This document shows positions 7,050 to 24,215 of a DNA stretch of 27,178 bases, in pieces. The first letter of the stretch is position 1, and every line of letters begins with the position of its first letter. Source of the DNA: a virus; IMG/VR virus record IMGVR_UViG_3300036908_000040, positions 1 to 27,178 of that record; one strand, 5' to 3'. The translations under genes were made by a program, and so were the position numbers. The notes beneath the pieces are model-generated. The model had not been told where the DNA came from. It saw only the letters and a program-made list of their open reading frames with translations, and ran no database searches.

Positions 7050-7067
7050 ATGTTTCACGTGAAACAT
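7050..7067. promoter_or_regulatory. parS-like palindrome, copy 1
   Basis: Perfect 18-base palindrome ATGTTTCACGTGAAACAT in the 34-base gap between the fibre-like gene and the muramidase gene. Its inner 16 bases are identical to the canonical chromosomal parS site bound by ParB. Flanks are AT-rich. Confidence 0.85.
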
Positions 7068-7720: not shown

Positions 7721-7738
7721 ATGTTTCACGTGAAACAT
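7721..7738. promoter_or_regulatory. parS-like palindrome, copy 2
   Basis: The same 18-base palindrome as at 7050. It fills the 20-base gap between two convergent genes: the small lysis gene ends at 7718 and the minus-strand cargo gene ends at 7739. A hairpin would have a 6-7 bp stem and no clear T tract, so it is a poor terminator. Confidence 0.85.
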
Positions 7739-13954: not shown

Positions 13955-13972
13955 ATGTTTCACGTGAAACAT
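13955..13972. promoter_or_regulatory. parS-like palindrome, copy 3
   Basis: Exact ATGTTTCACGTGAAACAT in the SSB-polymerase gap, 17 bases before the polymerase start. Paired with copy 4, 30 bases apart centre to centre. Confidence 0.85.
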
Positions 13973-13984
13973 ATTAGCGTCTGA

Positions 13985-14002
13985 ATGTTTCACGTGAAAC
14001 AT
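13985..14002. promoter_or_regulatory. parS-like palindrome, copy 4
   Basis: Exact ATGTTTCACGTGAAACAT, three bases beyond the SSB stop codon. With copy 3 it fills nearly the whole 67-base gap between two co-directional genes. Confidence 0.85.
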
Positions 14003-15477: not shown

Positions 15478-16549
15478 GGTTCCCTCCAAATATTTTACGC
15501 GGTAAATTCCCATGAACTTCCGTTAACTTTAACGCCCCAAACCTATATTCTGCCAGACTTTTTAAAATCTTTTCAGGCAATTTTTGTTTTCGAACTTGTG
15601 CAGGTGTGAGTATCTCTTGCGGTTTCTTAACATCAATCCCAAATAACGCCGCGGTTTCGATAATGTCTTCAACGCTAGCTTTCCAATACTCACGCCCGTT
15701 TCCTAATTCTAGGCGAAAATTAGTAACAGCTTCGCCCTGCCTTATTTTATATTTCGCCTCCTCTTCAAGCCCGGTAATGCGTGCGTCCAACAGATCCGCC
15801 GCGTGTTTTAAATATTTTAATTCTTGTCCGACCTCAGACGCGGTTAATTCCACGGAAGTATTCGGGGTACTCATAGTCGTATATTCAAGCGTAGTTTTTT
15901 GTAGCGCAGGGCAAGCGTGGCGGGCACGACAGTTAGAACATTCGGGGTTAGGGTTACATTGTGCGTTTGATTGCATCGCCGCGTTTTCTTGTATCAGTAA
16001 TTTTTCAAAGTAGGACCTTAACTCAGAAACCGAGATAGTCCAGCTATTAACTTTTTTAGCGGAGGAATAACAACGAGGCTGTACTATTACAAACGTAATT
16101 TTAGACATCTTAACGCTTTTATATTGACTAGATACTAGTCCGGCCGCGTATTCCAAAAGCTGCCAGTTTTCAAAAACTTCGACATATCCATGACCGAATT
16201 TATAATCAAACACATATAACGTGTCTTTATGATTTATGTGATAATCCGGTGTACCCCAGCAGTCTGGATGTATTATTGAAATATCAACACGGCTTTCAAT
16301 ATTCTGCCCCCGTATTCCAAAGGGTTCTATTGTACCGCGGTATAGCGTAGCGCCTTCAATCATTTCCTCAGTTACGCCGAGTTCATCTATCGTATCCCCA
16401 AGCAATGCCGCCGCCGCGACTCGATGCGCGAGTTCACCCTCTCGTGCGTGTGGAGAATCCTCACGTTCCGGGTATTTTTCCTCAAGCGCACGAGACCCCG
16501 GACACGCTACACGCCGCGCCGCGCTTGATGGTGCCAGTCTAGCGTGCAT
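15467..16549 (-). CDS. DUF2800 phage exonuclease-like protein (RecB/Cas4 fold with Fe-S cysteines)
   Basis: 360 residues from MHARLAPSSAARRVACPGS, a start with GGAG ten bases upstream; an ATG ten codons earlier lacks this. PD-(D/E)XK motifs: AREGELAHRV near residue 40, GTPDYHI (Asp102) and VFDYKFGHG (Asp115, Lys117), then ENWQLLEYA. Cys16 with Cys204, Cys207 and Cys213 (in ECSNCRARHACP) is the split four-Cys set of RecB/AddB/Cas4-type Fe-S nucleases. It probably trims DNA ends in phage recombination together with the SSB. The C-terminal ~140 residues are helical. It overlaps the upstream gene by 11 bases and the 47-residue gene by 11. Confidence 0.85.
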   Translation of the reverse strand: MHARLAPSSAARRVACPGSRALEEKYPEREDSPHAREGELAHRVAAAALLGDTIDELGVTEEMIEGATLYRGTIEPFGIRGQNIESRVDISIIHPDCWGTPDYHINHKDTLYVFDYKFGHGYVEVFENWQLLEYAAGLVSSQYKSVKMSKITFVIVQPRCYSSAKKVNSWTISVSELRSYFEKLLIQENAAMQSNAQCNPNPECSNCRARHACPALQKTTLEYTTMSTPNTSVELTASEVGQELKYLKHAADLLDARITGLEEEAKYKIRQGEAVTNFRLELGNGREYWKASVEDIIETAALFGIDVKKPQEILTPAQVRKQKLPEKILKSLAEYRFGALKLTEVHGNLPRKIFGGNHVE

Positions 16550-19950: not shown

Positions 19951-22113
19951 ATGAAAAGTACCGAACTCTCTCAAGCCCCAAGATTCATTATTGCTCAATA
20001 CGTAGCGTTAGAATCTGGAAAAATGAATAAAATACCATTACACCCTAAAACCTTAAAACCGCATGACGCGCAAGACCCCACAATACATATGACTTATGCC
20101 GCGGCGAGGACGCTGTTAACTCTCCTCGATGATTCCTATACTTTAGGCTTTGCGATCACAAGTCAAGACAACTATTTTTTTATCGACTTAGATAACTGCC
20201 TACAGCCTAACGGTCAGTGGACACCACTCGCATTAGATACCTGCCAACGGTTTGCAGGCGCATATGTGGAAATATCACAATCTAAACGCGGGTTACACAT
20301 AATCGGAAAATACGAAGGGCAGACCCCGGAACATACTTGTCGTGATAGCGCACGAGGGTTAGAGCTTTACACCTCAGGACGCTTTGTCGCTCTAACTGAA
20401 TACGGCGCGCAAGGTAACGCCGAGACTATACACACCCGGGCGTTGCATGATTACATAAAAACCTACGGCCTGTTAAAATCCCCCGGTGACAGCGACCGCG
20501 CAGAATGGACGACAGAATGCGCCTCCGGTATGACACCACCAGATAACGCCACGCTTATACATCAATTATTAAACGCTAAAAAATCAGCAAGTCAAATATT
20601 CTCAGACGAACAACAACACGCAACATTTAAAGACTTATTCGAAAATAACGAGGGAATACTTGCACAATTTTACCCGTCGGTATCGGGCGATGTATACGAC
20701 CGTAGCCGAGCGGATAGTTCAATAGCGTATCGGTTACATTACTGGTTAGGGGGGAATTGCGAGCGTGTGCAAGAAATTATGCAGTTATCGCAGCTAAAAC
20801 GCGACAAGTGGGAAAGAGAAGACTATTTACCCCGTACCATACTAAGCGCACGGGGGAAACAGACAATGAAAAATTACTTAAGTCCGCTCTCTCACAAGCA
20901 AAGCGACTTTACCGCACCTTGCTCTTTTAATCAACAAGCGTTGAATAAATTTTCTTATCCGAGAATTTCAAGTAATTCAAAAGTGCTAGATATTCCCGAA
21001 AATCTTCAATGCTTGCTTGATGCCTATGGTGTGACGGTGCGGTGGAATACTATGTCGCGCTTAAGAGAGATTGCTCTACCGGGCATAGCCCTTTTAAAAG
21101 AAGACGAACAAAACGCAACTCTGGCAATCCTTGAAGATATAGCGTTATTTAACGAGCTGCCCATAATCCGTATTGATAAAAATTTGGATACTATCGCGCA
21201 AAGAGACGCCTACCACCCCATTGTTGAAGGGTTAGCAAAAAACCCATGGGACGGCCTCCCACGACTTGAGCGGTTTATATCCACAGTTCACACCGAAAAC
21301 GATAAGCTATCTTATAAACTCATAAAACGCTGGCTAATATCAGCAATGGCCGCCGCGCATAGTGAGCGAGGTTTCGCGGCCTCAGGTGTGCTAGTGCTGT
21401 CAGGTGCACAAAACATAGGTAAAACAAGATTCATTAAATCGCTAGATCCCTTTGATTGCTGCGCCGTAAAAGAAGGCGCTATTTTAGACCCGTCAAATAA
21501 AGATAATATCTTAACATTAGCGTCACACTGGATAATTGAACTCGGCGAGCTAGACGCAACGTTTAGAAAAGCCGATATCGCACGTCTTAAAAGTCACTTA
21601 ACTAATACCATCGATATTGTGCGCGCGCCCTACGCTCGTAAAAATAGCTATCTTCCTAGACGCTCAGTGTATGCCGCCTCGGTTAATGATTCTAATTTTC
21701 TAATAGACGAAACCGGGAACCGGCGCTGGTGGACAATACCCACAACTCAAATTGATTTCATGCATGATATCGATATCGCACAAGTATGGGCGGAGGTATA
21801 CCACATATGGCAATCAGAAAGTCAAACGTGGCTCACCACCGAAGAATTCCAAGAACTTAACGACCTTAACGAACATCACACCCAACTCGACCCCTTTAGA
21901 GAAAAAGTTGAAGCGTATTTTGATTTTTCAGACGGGTATAAAGAGAGGGATACCGTGCTAATGACCGCGTCCGATGTGCTCACCTATATTGGATATACCA
22001 ACATTAGTAAAGGCCAAGCCACACGTATGGGCGCAATATTGATCAAAATGACCGGTTCTAAGAGCTATGACTGGCGTAGACGGTACGCATTGTTAAAGCG
22101 TGTGATGACTTGA
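19951..22113 (+). CDS. PrimPol-VapE primase-helicase
   Basis: 720 residues. The N-terminal ~170 residues are a PrimPol (archaeo-eukaryotic primase) domain: FFIDLDN (Asp79, Asp81) and SQSKRGLHIIG (His116). A primase C-terminal-like segment lies about 200-305. Residues about 340-720 are a VapE/D5-type SF3-like ATPase: NPWDGLPRLERF, Walker A SGAQNIGKT (Lys491), ELGELDA as Walker B (Glu530-Asp535), then RRSVYAASVN and ETGNRRWWTIP. It should prime and unwind at the phage origin, probably the iteron array just downstream. ATG follows the HTH gene by 12 bases. Last gene of the plus-strand operon, ended by a strong terminator. Confidence 0.9.
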   Translation: MKSTELSQAPRFIIAQYVALESGKMNKIPLHPKTLKPHDAQDPTIHMTYAAARTLLTLLDDSYTLGFAITSQDNYFFIDLDNCLQPNGQWTPLALDTCQRFAGAYVEISQSKRGLHIIGKYEGQTPEHTCRDSARGLELYTSGRFVALTEYGAQGNAETIHTRALHDYIKTYGLLKSPGDSDRAEWTTECASGMTPPDNATLIHQLLNAKKSASQIFSDEQQHATFKDLFENNEGILAQFYPSVSGDVYDRSRADSSIAYRLHYWLGGNCERVQEIMQLSQLKRDKWEREDYLPRTILSARGKQTMKNYLSPLSHKQSDFTAPCSFNQQALNKFSYPRISSNSKVLDIPENLQCLLDAYGVTVRWNTMSRLREIALPGIALLKEDEQNATLAILEDIALFNELPIIRIDKNLDTIAQRDAYHPIVEGLAKNPWDGLPRLERFISTVHTENDKLSYKLIKRWLISAMAAAHSERGFAASGVLVLSGAQNIGKTRFIKSLDPFDCCAVKEGAILDPSNKDNILTLASHWIIELGELDATFRKADIARLKSHLTNTIDIVRAPYARKNSYLPRRSVYAASVNDSNFLIDETGNRRWWTIPTTQIDFMHDIDIAQVWAEVYHIWQSESQTWLTTEEFQELNDLNEHHTQLDPFREKVEAYFDFSDGYKERDTVLMTASDVLTYIGYTNISKGQATRMGAILIKMTGSKSYDWRRRYALLKRVMT

Positions 22114-22134
22114 AACCGTAAAAACACATATACA

Positions 22135-22157
22135 GGGGGCTTCGGCTCCCTTTTTTT
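22135..22157 (+). terminator. Rho-independent terminator after primase-helicase
   Basis: GGGGGC (22135-22140), loop TTCG, GCTCCC (22145-22150), then seven T. Stem has one G-T wobble. A UUCG tetraloop and T tract make it strong. Confidence 0.92.
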
Positions 22158-22186: not shown

Positions 22187-22495
22187 CCTCACACCTCAAA
22201 CCCATGCCTCACACCTCAAAAACATAGGTGTGTGGCAAAAAATCCACGCCCCGCCTACGTTTATCACACCTATCACACCTCACACACTTATTGTATATAA
22301 GAATAAATAGTAATAGTGGGCTGTACACAGTGCGTACAGGGAGCTGTATATACTGTGTACACGCAGCTCGTCCTCTCGGAAACGTAGGTGGAGGTGTGAT
22401 AGGTGTGAGGAAGCCTTATAGGACGTGGGTTATGTGCCTGTCACCTAGGTGTTTTGAGGTGTGAGGTAGACGTTTTGAGGTGTGAGGGTGTGAGG
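22187..22495. other. Iteron array with dyad symmetry, candidate replication origin
   Basis: No gene fits this 467-base gap. The 14-mer CCTCACACCTCAAA occurs twice on the plus strand (22187-22200, 22207-22220, 20 bases apart) and twice on the minus strand (22453-22466, 22474-22487, 21 apart). Related CACACCTATCACACCT and GGTGTGATAGGTGTGAGG units lie at 22265-22280 and 22393-22410, again inverted. A CCTACGTTT/AAACGTAGG pair is at 22254-22262 and 22380-22388. The centre is AT-rich (TTGTATATAAGAATAAATAG) and holds another inverted repeat. The order primase-helicase, terminator, iterons is typical of an origin. The binding protein is unknown. Confidence 0.65.
22323..22360. repeat. Central inverted repeat in the iteron array
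   Basis: Perfect 9-base arms GTACACAGT (22323-22331) and ACTGTGTAC (22352-22360) around GCGTACAGGGAGCTGTATAT, at the axis of the flanking inverted iterons. Confidence 0.7.
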
Positions 22496-22580: not shown

Positions 22581-23780
22581 ATGGACATCGTTTTAAAAGA
22601 TATCAGCAAGTTAAAAGATTATGAGAAGAACGCCCGGGTGCATAGCCCGGAACAAATTAAACAGATCATGCACTCAGTCAGCATTTTTGGATTCAATGAT
22701 CCCATCGAAATATCAGAAAATAACGTGATTATAAGCGGTCATGCCCGTGTAGCCGCCGCCAAGGCTCTAGGTTTGACGCAAGTACCAACCATAGTACACA
22801 GCCACCTTAACGAAGAAAACCGCATAGCGTACACTCTAGCGGCAAATAAGATCGCGCTAGGAAGTAGCTGGGATGTGGATATTTTAAAAAATGAATTGGA
22901 GAGTCTAAAAGATATAGACTTTGATTTAAAGTTAACCGGATTTAACGATGATGAATTATCTAACCTATTTTTTGAAGAAGTTAACGGCCTCGTTGACGAC
23001 GATAGTTGCCCTGAGATACCCGAGGAAGCCGTTACCTGCCTGGGCGAAGTATGGACTCTGGGCAACCATAGGTTACTGTGTGGGGATTCTACCGTGGCGA
23101 CTGATGTTGAACGGTTGTTGAATGGCGAGTTACCTAATACTATGATTACCGACCCGCCGTATGGCGTTAAGCTTGACATGTCATGGCGCGACAAGGCAAA
23201 GAAAGACGGTGCTAAAAATAACAAAAACGTTATTCAGAATGACGACCGAGCCGACTGGTACGATGCATATGTTCTTTTTCCGGGAAATATTGCGTATGTG
23301 TGGCATGCCTCAAGGTTCACCGATGTGGTTATGGAAAACCTAAGAGACGCCGGGTTCGACGTAAAACAGCAAATTATTTGGAATAAAGGAAATTTTATTT
23401 TTGGAAGGTCAAACTATCATTGGAAACACGAACCTTGCTGGTACGCTGTTAAAAAAGGCGCGGTATCTAACTGGAAAGGCGACCGAAAACAAACGACCGT
23501 TTGGGACTGTGCGATTCCTAACAGGAATAATTCAGGCTCAAAAGACGATAAAACCGCACACCCAACACAAAAACCGGTCGAACTTTTCGAGCGTTCCATT
23601 GCGCACCATACAAACCCCGGTGAGTATGTGTATGACCCGTTTGCCGGCAGTGGCACAATTATGATAGCGGCTGAAAAAACACAACGACGCGCGCTAATGA
23701 TGGAGTTAGACCCAAAGTATGCGACTATGCTCATAAAAAGATATGAAATTTTTACAGGTAAAAAAGCTGTTAAGGGGTAA
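22581..23780 (+). CDS. ParB-like-domain DNA methyltransferase (N6-adenine/N4-cytosine)
   Basis: 399 residues. Residues about 1-95 form a ParB/Srx-like domain (LKDYEKNARVHSPEQI, VIISGHARVAAAKALGL), without the ParB HTH or dimer domain, so it should not read parS. From about 150 there is a methyltransferase with motif IV DPPYG (191-195) before motif I DPFAGSGT (352-359), the beta-type order. HPTQKPVELFERSI is the usual conserved block preceding motif I. It uses S-adenosylmethionine. No restriction partner is seen, so it probably protects phage DNA or marks the origin or packaging region. Four bases separate it from the terminase-like gene. Confidence 0.9.
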   Translation: MDIVLKDISKLKDYEKNARVHSPEQIKQIMHSVSIFGFNDPIEISENNVIISGHARVAAAKALGLTQVPTIVHSHLNEENRIAYTLAANKIALGSSWDVDILKNELESLKDIDFDLKLTGFNDDELSNLFFEEVNGLVDDDSCPEIPEEAVTCLGEVWTLGNHRLLCGDSTVATDVERLLNGELPNTMITDPPYGVKLDMSWRDKAKKDGAKNNKNVIQNDDRADWYDAYVLFPGNIAYVWHASRFTDVVMENLRDAGFDVKQQIIWNKGNFIFGRSNYHWKHEPCWYAVKKGAVSNWKGDRKQTTVWDCAIPNRNNSGSKDDKTAHPTQKPVELFERSIAHHTNPGEYVYDPFAGSGTIMIAAEKTQRRALMMELDPKYATMLIKRYEIFTGKKAVKG

Positions 23781-23783
23781 ATT

Positions 23784-24215
23784 ATGGCTGAGGAAATTAA
23801 AAAAACATTACGAGGACGTCCGCTCGCATTCATATTAACCCAGGAAATGCTTGACGAAATCCAAAAGCTGTCATCTTGTGGATTGAATCAGAGACAAATT
23901 CGGGACTACTATGGGATAGCTCATACTACGTGGCAAACTAAACGCCGACGTTTTCCTGAAATTTTAGAATATTTTAATAAAGGGAAATCAAAAGGCACGG
24001 CGTTTGTTGCCAATAAACTTATGGAGCTAGTAAAAAAAGGCCATTTTAACGCTATCCGGTTTTATCTTGAAACCGTCGGAGAATTCGGCACCGCGGCCGA
24101 TGACGAAGAAAACGAAGAAAAAAAACCGGTATCCGCACTAACTATAACAGTGACAGACCCTATTGAAGCGGCTAAGATATACCAAGAAATTATGAAAGGG
24201 ACGATGAAATCATGA
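23784..24215 (+). CDS. HTH protein, terminase small subunit-like
   Basis: 143 residues. An N-terminal HTH (CGLNQRQIRDYYGIAHTTW) follows a short basic start. Then come FNKGKSKGTAFVANKLMEL and GHFNAIRFYLETVGEFG, a block shared by small terminases and related phage DNA-binding proteins. The C-terminal region is acidic (DDEENEEKK), then PIEAAKIYQEIM, as in small terminases. A small terminase selects packaging sites for the large subunit, which is not in this window. A fibre gene, not a large terminase, comes next, so the call is cautious. Its stop overlaps the next ATG (ATGA). Confidence 0.6.
   Translation: MAEEIKKTLRGRPLAFILTQEMLDEIQKLSSCGLNQRQIRDYYGIAHTTWQTKRRRFPEILEYFNKGKSKGTAFVANKLMELVKKGHFNAIRFYLETVGEFGTAADDEENEEKKPVSALTITVTDPIEAAKIYQEIMKGTMKS

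Follow-up and report, generated by a model that had tools for sequence, protein, structure and literature searches.

Inverted iteron array behind a PrimPol-VapE primase-helicase gene as the probable replication origin of an uncultured tailed phage

An array of short inverted iterons at positions 22187-22495 of the window is very probably a phage replication origin of the self-loading-helicase kind, as in SaPI/PICI and phage Sfi21, and would operate by the mechanism proposed here. The window is the whole stretch of DNA that was analysed, a fragment of 27,178 b from an uncultured virus (IMG/VR record IMGVR_UViG_3300036908_000040). We infer the mechanism: the C-terminal winged-helix domain of the fused primase-helicase (PrimPol-VapE) would read the TCACACCT iterons, the mirror halves of the array would assemble two helicase rings face to face, and the DNA between the rings, i.e. 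the AT-rich stretch and the central hairpin, would melt. The rings would then unwind both ways, with the fused PrimPol priming and the phage PolA-type polymerase extending. Homology, together with the matching layout, makes it most likely that PrimPol-VapE reads the iterons and builds the two rings. The record being a fragment counts against this being the sole origin, as another may lie outside it.

The window encodes tape-measure, Dit-like, baseplate hub and baseplate wedge proteins and, judging by these tail and baseplate genes, the virus is a contractile-tailed phage. Its replication genes specify a PolA-type polymerase, a gp2.5-like SSB, a DUF2800 exonuclease, a superfamily 2-type (ResIII/Helicase_C) helicase, a nuclease-like protein and PrimPol-VapE, after which come the ParB_N-methyltransferase gene and then the small-terminase-like gene. 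An open-ended 919-aa repeat-rich protein at 24421-27177 matches no assigned family; repeats related to its own occur upstream of VapE in the relative L055.

The array sits behind a terminator in the 467-b noncoding gap that runs from the PrimPol-VapE stop to the methyltransferase gene, and it starts 76 b after that stop (Table 1). As originally predicted, the 14-mer CCTCACACCTCAAA occurs exactly twice in each orientation (22187 and 22207 on the plus strand, 22453-22466 and 22474-22487 on the minus strand), at spacings of 20 and 21 b, and nowhere else in the 27,178 b. Inner related repeats had been noticed as well, and are present; what had been missed is their full form, in which the inner core pairs make up a perfect 18-nt inverted repeat, TCACACCTATCACACCTC, each side of which holds two cores at a distance of 9 b. 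The core itself, TCACACCT, is found in eight exact copies at 22189-22485 (plus strand 22189, 22209, 22264 and 22273; minus strand 22392, 22401, 22457 and 22478), and the 14-mer appearance of the outer copies results from an extra CAAA beside the core. Start-to-start spacings are 20, 55 and 9 b on the left and 9, 56 and 21 b on the right, and the four mirror pairs are centred on 22337, 22336.5, 22336 and 22336, so that the two halves are mirror-symmetric about base 22336 to within one base. Degenerate copies were found at 22226 and 22486. Between the arms, the predicted 9-base inverted repeat is real (TGTACACAG at 22322-22330, CTGTGTACA at 22353-22361) and forms part of an 18-nt, 83% inverted repeat; in folding as single-stranded DNA, the stretch between the arms outdoes 199 of 200 shuffles. 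The AT-rich centre of the original prediction holds for 22283-22321 and fails for the inter-arm stretch as a whole, which at 56% AT resembles the window (55%).

Table 1. Features in and around the array (window coordinates).
Feature	Position	Strand	Remarks
Primase-helicase (PrimPol-VapE), proposed initiator	19951..22113	+	NrS-1-like PrimPol and helix-bundle domain, VapE (SF3/AAA+) helicase, C-terminal winged-helix-like domain
Intrinsic terminator	22134..22157	+	Ends helicase transcript before array; stem AGGGGGCTTCGGCTCCCT then TTTTTT
Left outer iterons	22187..22220	+	Two CCTCACACCTCAAA, 20 b apart
Left inner iterons	22264..22281	+	Two TCACACCT, 9 b apart; perfect inverted partner at 22391-22408
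AT-rich stretch, proposed melting site	22283..22321	.	72% AT, 39 b
Central inverted repeat, potential hairpin	22322..22361	.	
Right inner iterons	22391..22408	-	Two TCACACCT, 9 b apart
Right outer iterons	22453..22487	-	Two CCTCACACCTCAAA, 21 b apart
ParB_N-N6 adenine methyltransferase	22581..23780	+	Next gene after array; thought to lie outside the origin
Terminase-small-subunit-like gene	23784-24215		1.3 kb downstream of array

Chance is ruled out as the source of the array by shuffling of both the window and the region itself. When the window was dinucleotide-shuffled 200 times, the best both-orientation 8-mer per 350 b reached 2-4 copies, against the eight observed, and in 2000 local shuffles of the array region the maximum never rose above four copies. 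One stray TCACACCT lies at 15602, the expectation for the whole window being 0.45 copies. The GC-skew check suggested with the original prediction gave no clear switch at the array, and skew is confounded here by gene direction.

The proposed initiator is homologous to SaPI PriRep1 in its helicase. PrimPol-VapE falls in the PHROG class primase/helicase, matches the Pfam families VapE (8.9e-49) and NrS-1 HBD (9.4e-9), and resembles the NrS-1 primase in the sequence of its N-terminal part. By sequence it also matches 7pds (phmmer 3.5e-22), the structure of PriRep1 with dsDNA. The C-terminal 400 residues were modelled with AlphaFold2 from 50 relatives (mean pLDDT 92.5); the top fold match of this model in the PDB was again 7pds (Foldseek E 2.9e-20, TM 0.74), with NrS-1 next and SaPI5 primase-helicase structures further down. 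The modelled C-terminus shows the order helix-strand-helix-helix-strand, and the winged-helix-like domain occupies about residues 645-720.

Arrays of this layout recur behind VapE genes in many unrelated phages. Relatives were picked by protein, regardless of repeats, in a profile-type search that used a VapE alignment and yielded 80 viral loci, of which 48 were non-redundant and had enough downstream sequence; an array was scored where the 450 b after the VapE stop held an 8-mer in at least four copies and in both orientations. Such arrays were present in 18/48 viral loci, compared with 3/799 other windows of those loci and 0/4800 shuffles (Fisher 1e-21), and with 4/100 of the other noncoding gaps of the same loci. 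In a second sample, taken separately from bacterial genomes, arrays were present in 13/67 loci against 8/1300 control windows or, without clustering, in 14/78 against 2/186 noncoding gaps. Neighbouring iterons on the same strand are mostly 8-9 b apart in the relatives. Among named phages, drawn from a list spread over the search ranking and not chosen for repeats, the array starts at most about 50 b from the VapE stop in Staphylococcus phage 47, Streptococcus phiARI0399, Corynebacterium SamW, Paenibacillus ABAtENZ and Clostridioides phiCDKH02, as it does in the satellite Javan292; mumin has an array about 0.64 kb on, and BK687P5, FoX3, LN34 and phi47:1, from the same list, have none at the VapE stop. 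By the exact-8-mer criterion, about 60-80% of VapE relatives lack an array at the stop. In some of these the iterons may be shorter or more degenerate, or the origin may lie elsewhere, for instance in phage Mica, which like the relative ep3 has no array adjoining VapE and carries one about 2.8 kb further on. A motif-led search, biased towards TCACACCT by design, was left out of these statistics.

It had been suggested that the motif be looked for in relatives; the array layout does recur behind VapE, but the words differ from one relative to the next. The window has AGGTGTGA; of the closest relatives, L212 (55% identity) has inverted runs of TGACACTT around an AT-rich centre and L055 (49% identity) an array of CAGGGTAACC; L119/L120 have ACTGTCAG. 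Among VapE relatives, conservation is far lower in the C-terminal domain than in the motor core, and it is the C-terminal domain that the motif's similarity tracks more closely (partial Mantel r 0.19, p 0.0015, with the core controlled; r 0.10, p 0.04, for the core with the C-terminus controlled). The correlation with the C-terminal domain is a modest effect and is no proof of recognition. We also considered whether the iterons double as primase sites, since NrS-1 PrimPol reads GTGA/GTGG (PMC8718748). This was rejected as a rule: the window iteron AGGTGTGAGG contains GTGA/GTGG, while those of L055 and L054 (CTGCTACC) do not.

Related arrangements were seen beside other initiators. A near-identical GGTGTGACA-type iteron lies in both orientations behind initiator helicases at L105:6092-6266, L113:2464-2648, L094, L070, L060:4723-4974, L083:9145-9490 and L090:8157-8459, the helicase families being RepA/AAA_25 with Toprim, DUF5906, DUF927/Cch and PrimPol-D5; these loci were found by motif, and the shared word is partly a product of that selection. 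DUF3987 PrimPol helicases have a GTGTGAAA array just upstream of the gene and not downstream (L065:1180-1361, L112:7420-7601). Two ParB-methyltransferase relatives without an adjoining VapE gene, L292:550-738 and L295:2134-2245, have iteron-like repeats, inside a replisome-organizer gene in one and directly behind a RepA gene in the other.

By homology, the array belongs with the origins of SaPI/PICI and Sfi21. In SaPIs the origin directly follows rep, and the C-terminal domain of Rep reads it, apparently in the form of two hexamers (PMC7581432); PICI origins always consist of an AT-rich region with a set of iterons on either side and, together with rep, maintain a plasmid (PMC6092414). As in the rep(pri)-ori units of SaPI5 (PriRep1), SaPIbov1 (Rep) and EcCICFT073, the putative origin in the window follows the primase-helicase gene immediately on its 3' side and has two sets of iterons with an AT-rich region between them, although the AT-rich part is just 39 b; the helicase is likewise VapE-like with a C-terminal domain, and among solved folds PriRep1 with dsDNA comes closest to it. 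It differs in coming from a tailed phage and not a satellite, in the fusion of an NrS-1-type PrimPol to VapE, and in its own iteron, TCACACCT, whose layout is near-perfectly mirrored and whose binding is predicted. The element is not itself a PICI, i.e. a satellite without a full virion gene set, because the record carries virion genes. Phage Sfi21 served as a positive control: its GenBank record (NC_000872) annotates a 302-b noncoding origin directly behind the primase gene, in which inner tandem pairs, TTAGTTACTTAGTTACT and AGTAACTAAGTAACTAA, are inverted around an AT-rich centre, with additional outer copies. Sfi21 shares with the window a phage origin directly behind a primase/helicase gene, but its helicase is unrecognised by the VapE profile, its polymerase/primase is a separate gene and its motif is another. 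SCCmec Cch2 is also a self-loading helicase whose C-terminal domain binds repeats just downstream of its gene, in a putative origin; there, three 5-nt direct repeats carry the binding, and mirror-symmetric arms are absent. The NrS-1 phage protein has the same N-terminal PrimPol and HBD family and a C-terminal AAA+ helicase, whereas its genome has just two 8-nt recognition sites and an iteron array is not described there. In phage P4, the alpha protein alone primes, unwinds and reads iterons, although its primase is from another family and its ori/crr layout is different. The relatives, the Sfi21 control, the structure match and the statistics all support the original prediction of a candidate origin beside the primase-helicase gene.

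That prediction went further, taking iterons as a plasmid hallmark and proposing plasmid-like replication and maintenance. On such a reading, a plasmid-type iteron origin would work with host DnaA to maintain a plasmid-prophage. The iteron spacing of about 20 b fits such an origin, and the parS sites cited for it are real: the canonical chromosomal palindrome TGTTTCACGTGAAACA occurs in four perfect copies (7051-7066, 7722-7737, 13956-13971 and 13986-14001) against an expectation of 0.01 at up to two mismatches. Of the other ParABS components, no ParA-type ATPase matched in this fragment, and ParB_N, the sole ParB-like domain found, is a sub-threshold domain match that exists solely as part of the methyltransferase fusion; the parS copies are perhaps sites for host ParB. 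A plasmid Rep family was absent from the window genes scanned with Pfam, which cover the fragment only, and the array holds no DnaA-box match. The iterons are, moreover, inverted and paired with a helicase, and the same arrays stand behind VapE in ordinary tailed phages and in satellites. A plasmid/DnaA origin was rejected for want of a ParA match in the fragment and of a DnaA-box match in the array, and we regard this reading as very improbable.

Two further readings look to the genes downstream. The array lies directly upstream of the methyltransferase gene, to which a ParB_N is fused, and could be the operator/promoter of a ParB-methyltransferase/terminase operon, bound by a repressor or by ParB_N; we consider this improbable. 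In relatives the array follows the VapE gene, and none of four inspected methyltransferase relatives without a VapE neighbour has a both-orientation array just in front; one of the four has its array immediately after a RepA helicase gene, and another has one within the replisome-organizer gene. Because arrays accompany the helicase in relatives, a tie to the methyltransferase was rejected. Eight symmetric sites across 300 b are also large for an operator, and a plus-strand promoter in the array scored no better than chance. Terminase sites can be repeat arrays, and the nearby terminase-small-subunit-like gene would fit a packaging (pac/cos) site read by its product. The chance of this is minimal in our estimation, as arrays recur behind VapE and Sfi21 is annotated with an origin array and a cos site that are separate, about 6 kb apart.

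The phage replication origin proposed here bears on how such origins are shared. The PICI paper states that the layout exists in no other bacterial replicon; we find it following homologous helicase genes, in the tailed phage of the window, in named phages of Staphylococcus, Streptococcus, Corynebacterium, Paenibacillus and Clostridioides and in many uncultured ones, and the Sfi21 record already implied an island-type layout in a phage. Its occurrence in phages may have been noted in the literature before. These results suggest that the island origin is a module common to phages and satellites. Tentatively, we propose that the self-loading helicases of phages and satellites share a general and exchangeable grammar of origins, in which an inverted array of short iterons follows the gene of the initiator. 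This grammar, possibly common to VapE, DUF5906, D5, DUF927/Cch and RepA/AAA_25, would have its word rewritten as the C-terminal reader diverges. Helicase-iteron pairs from relatives with diverged reader domains offer material for testing specificity switching and, if the grammar is true, the origins of uncultured phages would be readable straight from sequence.
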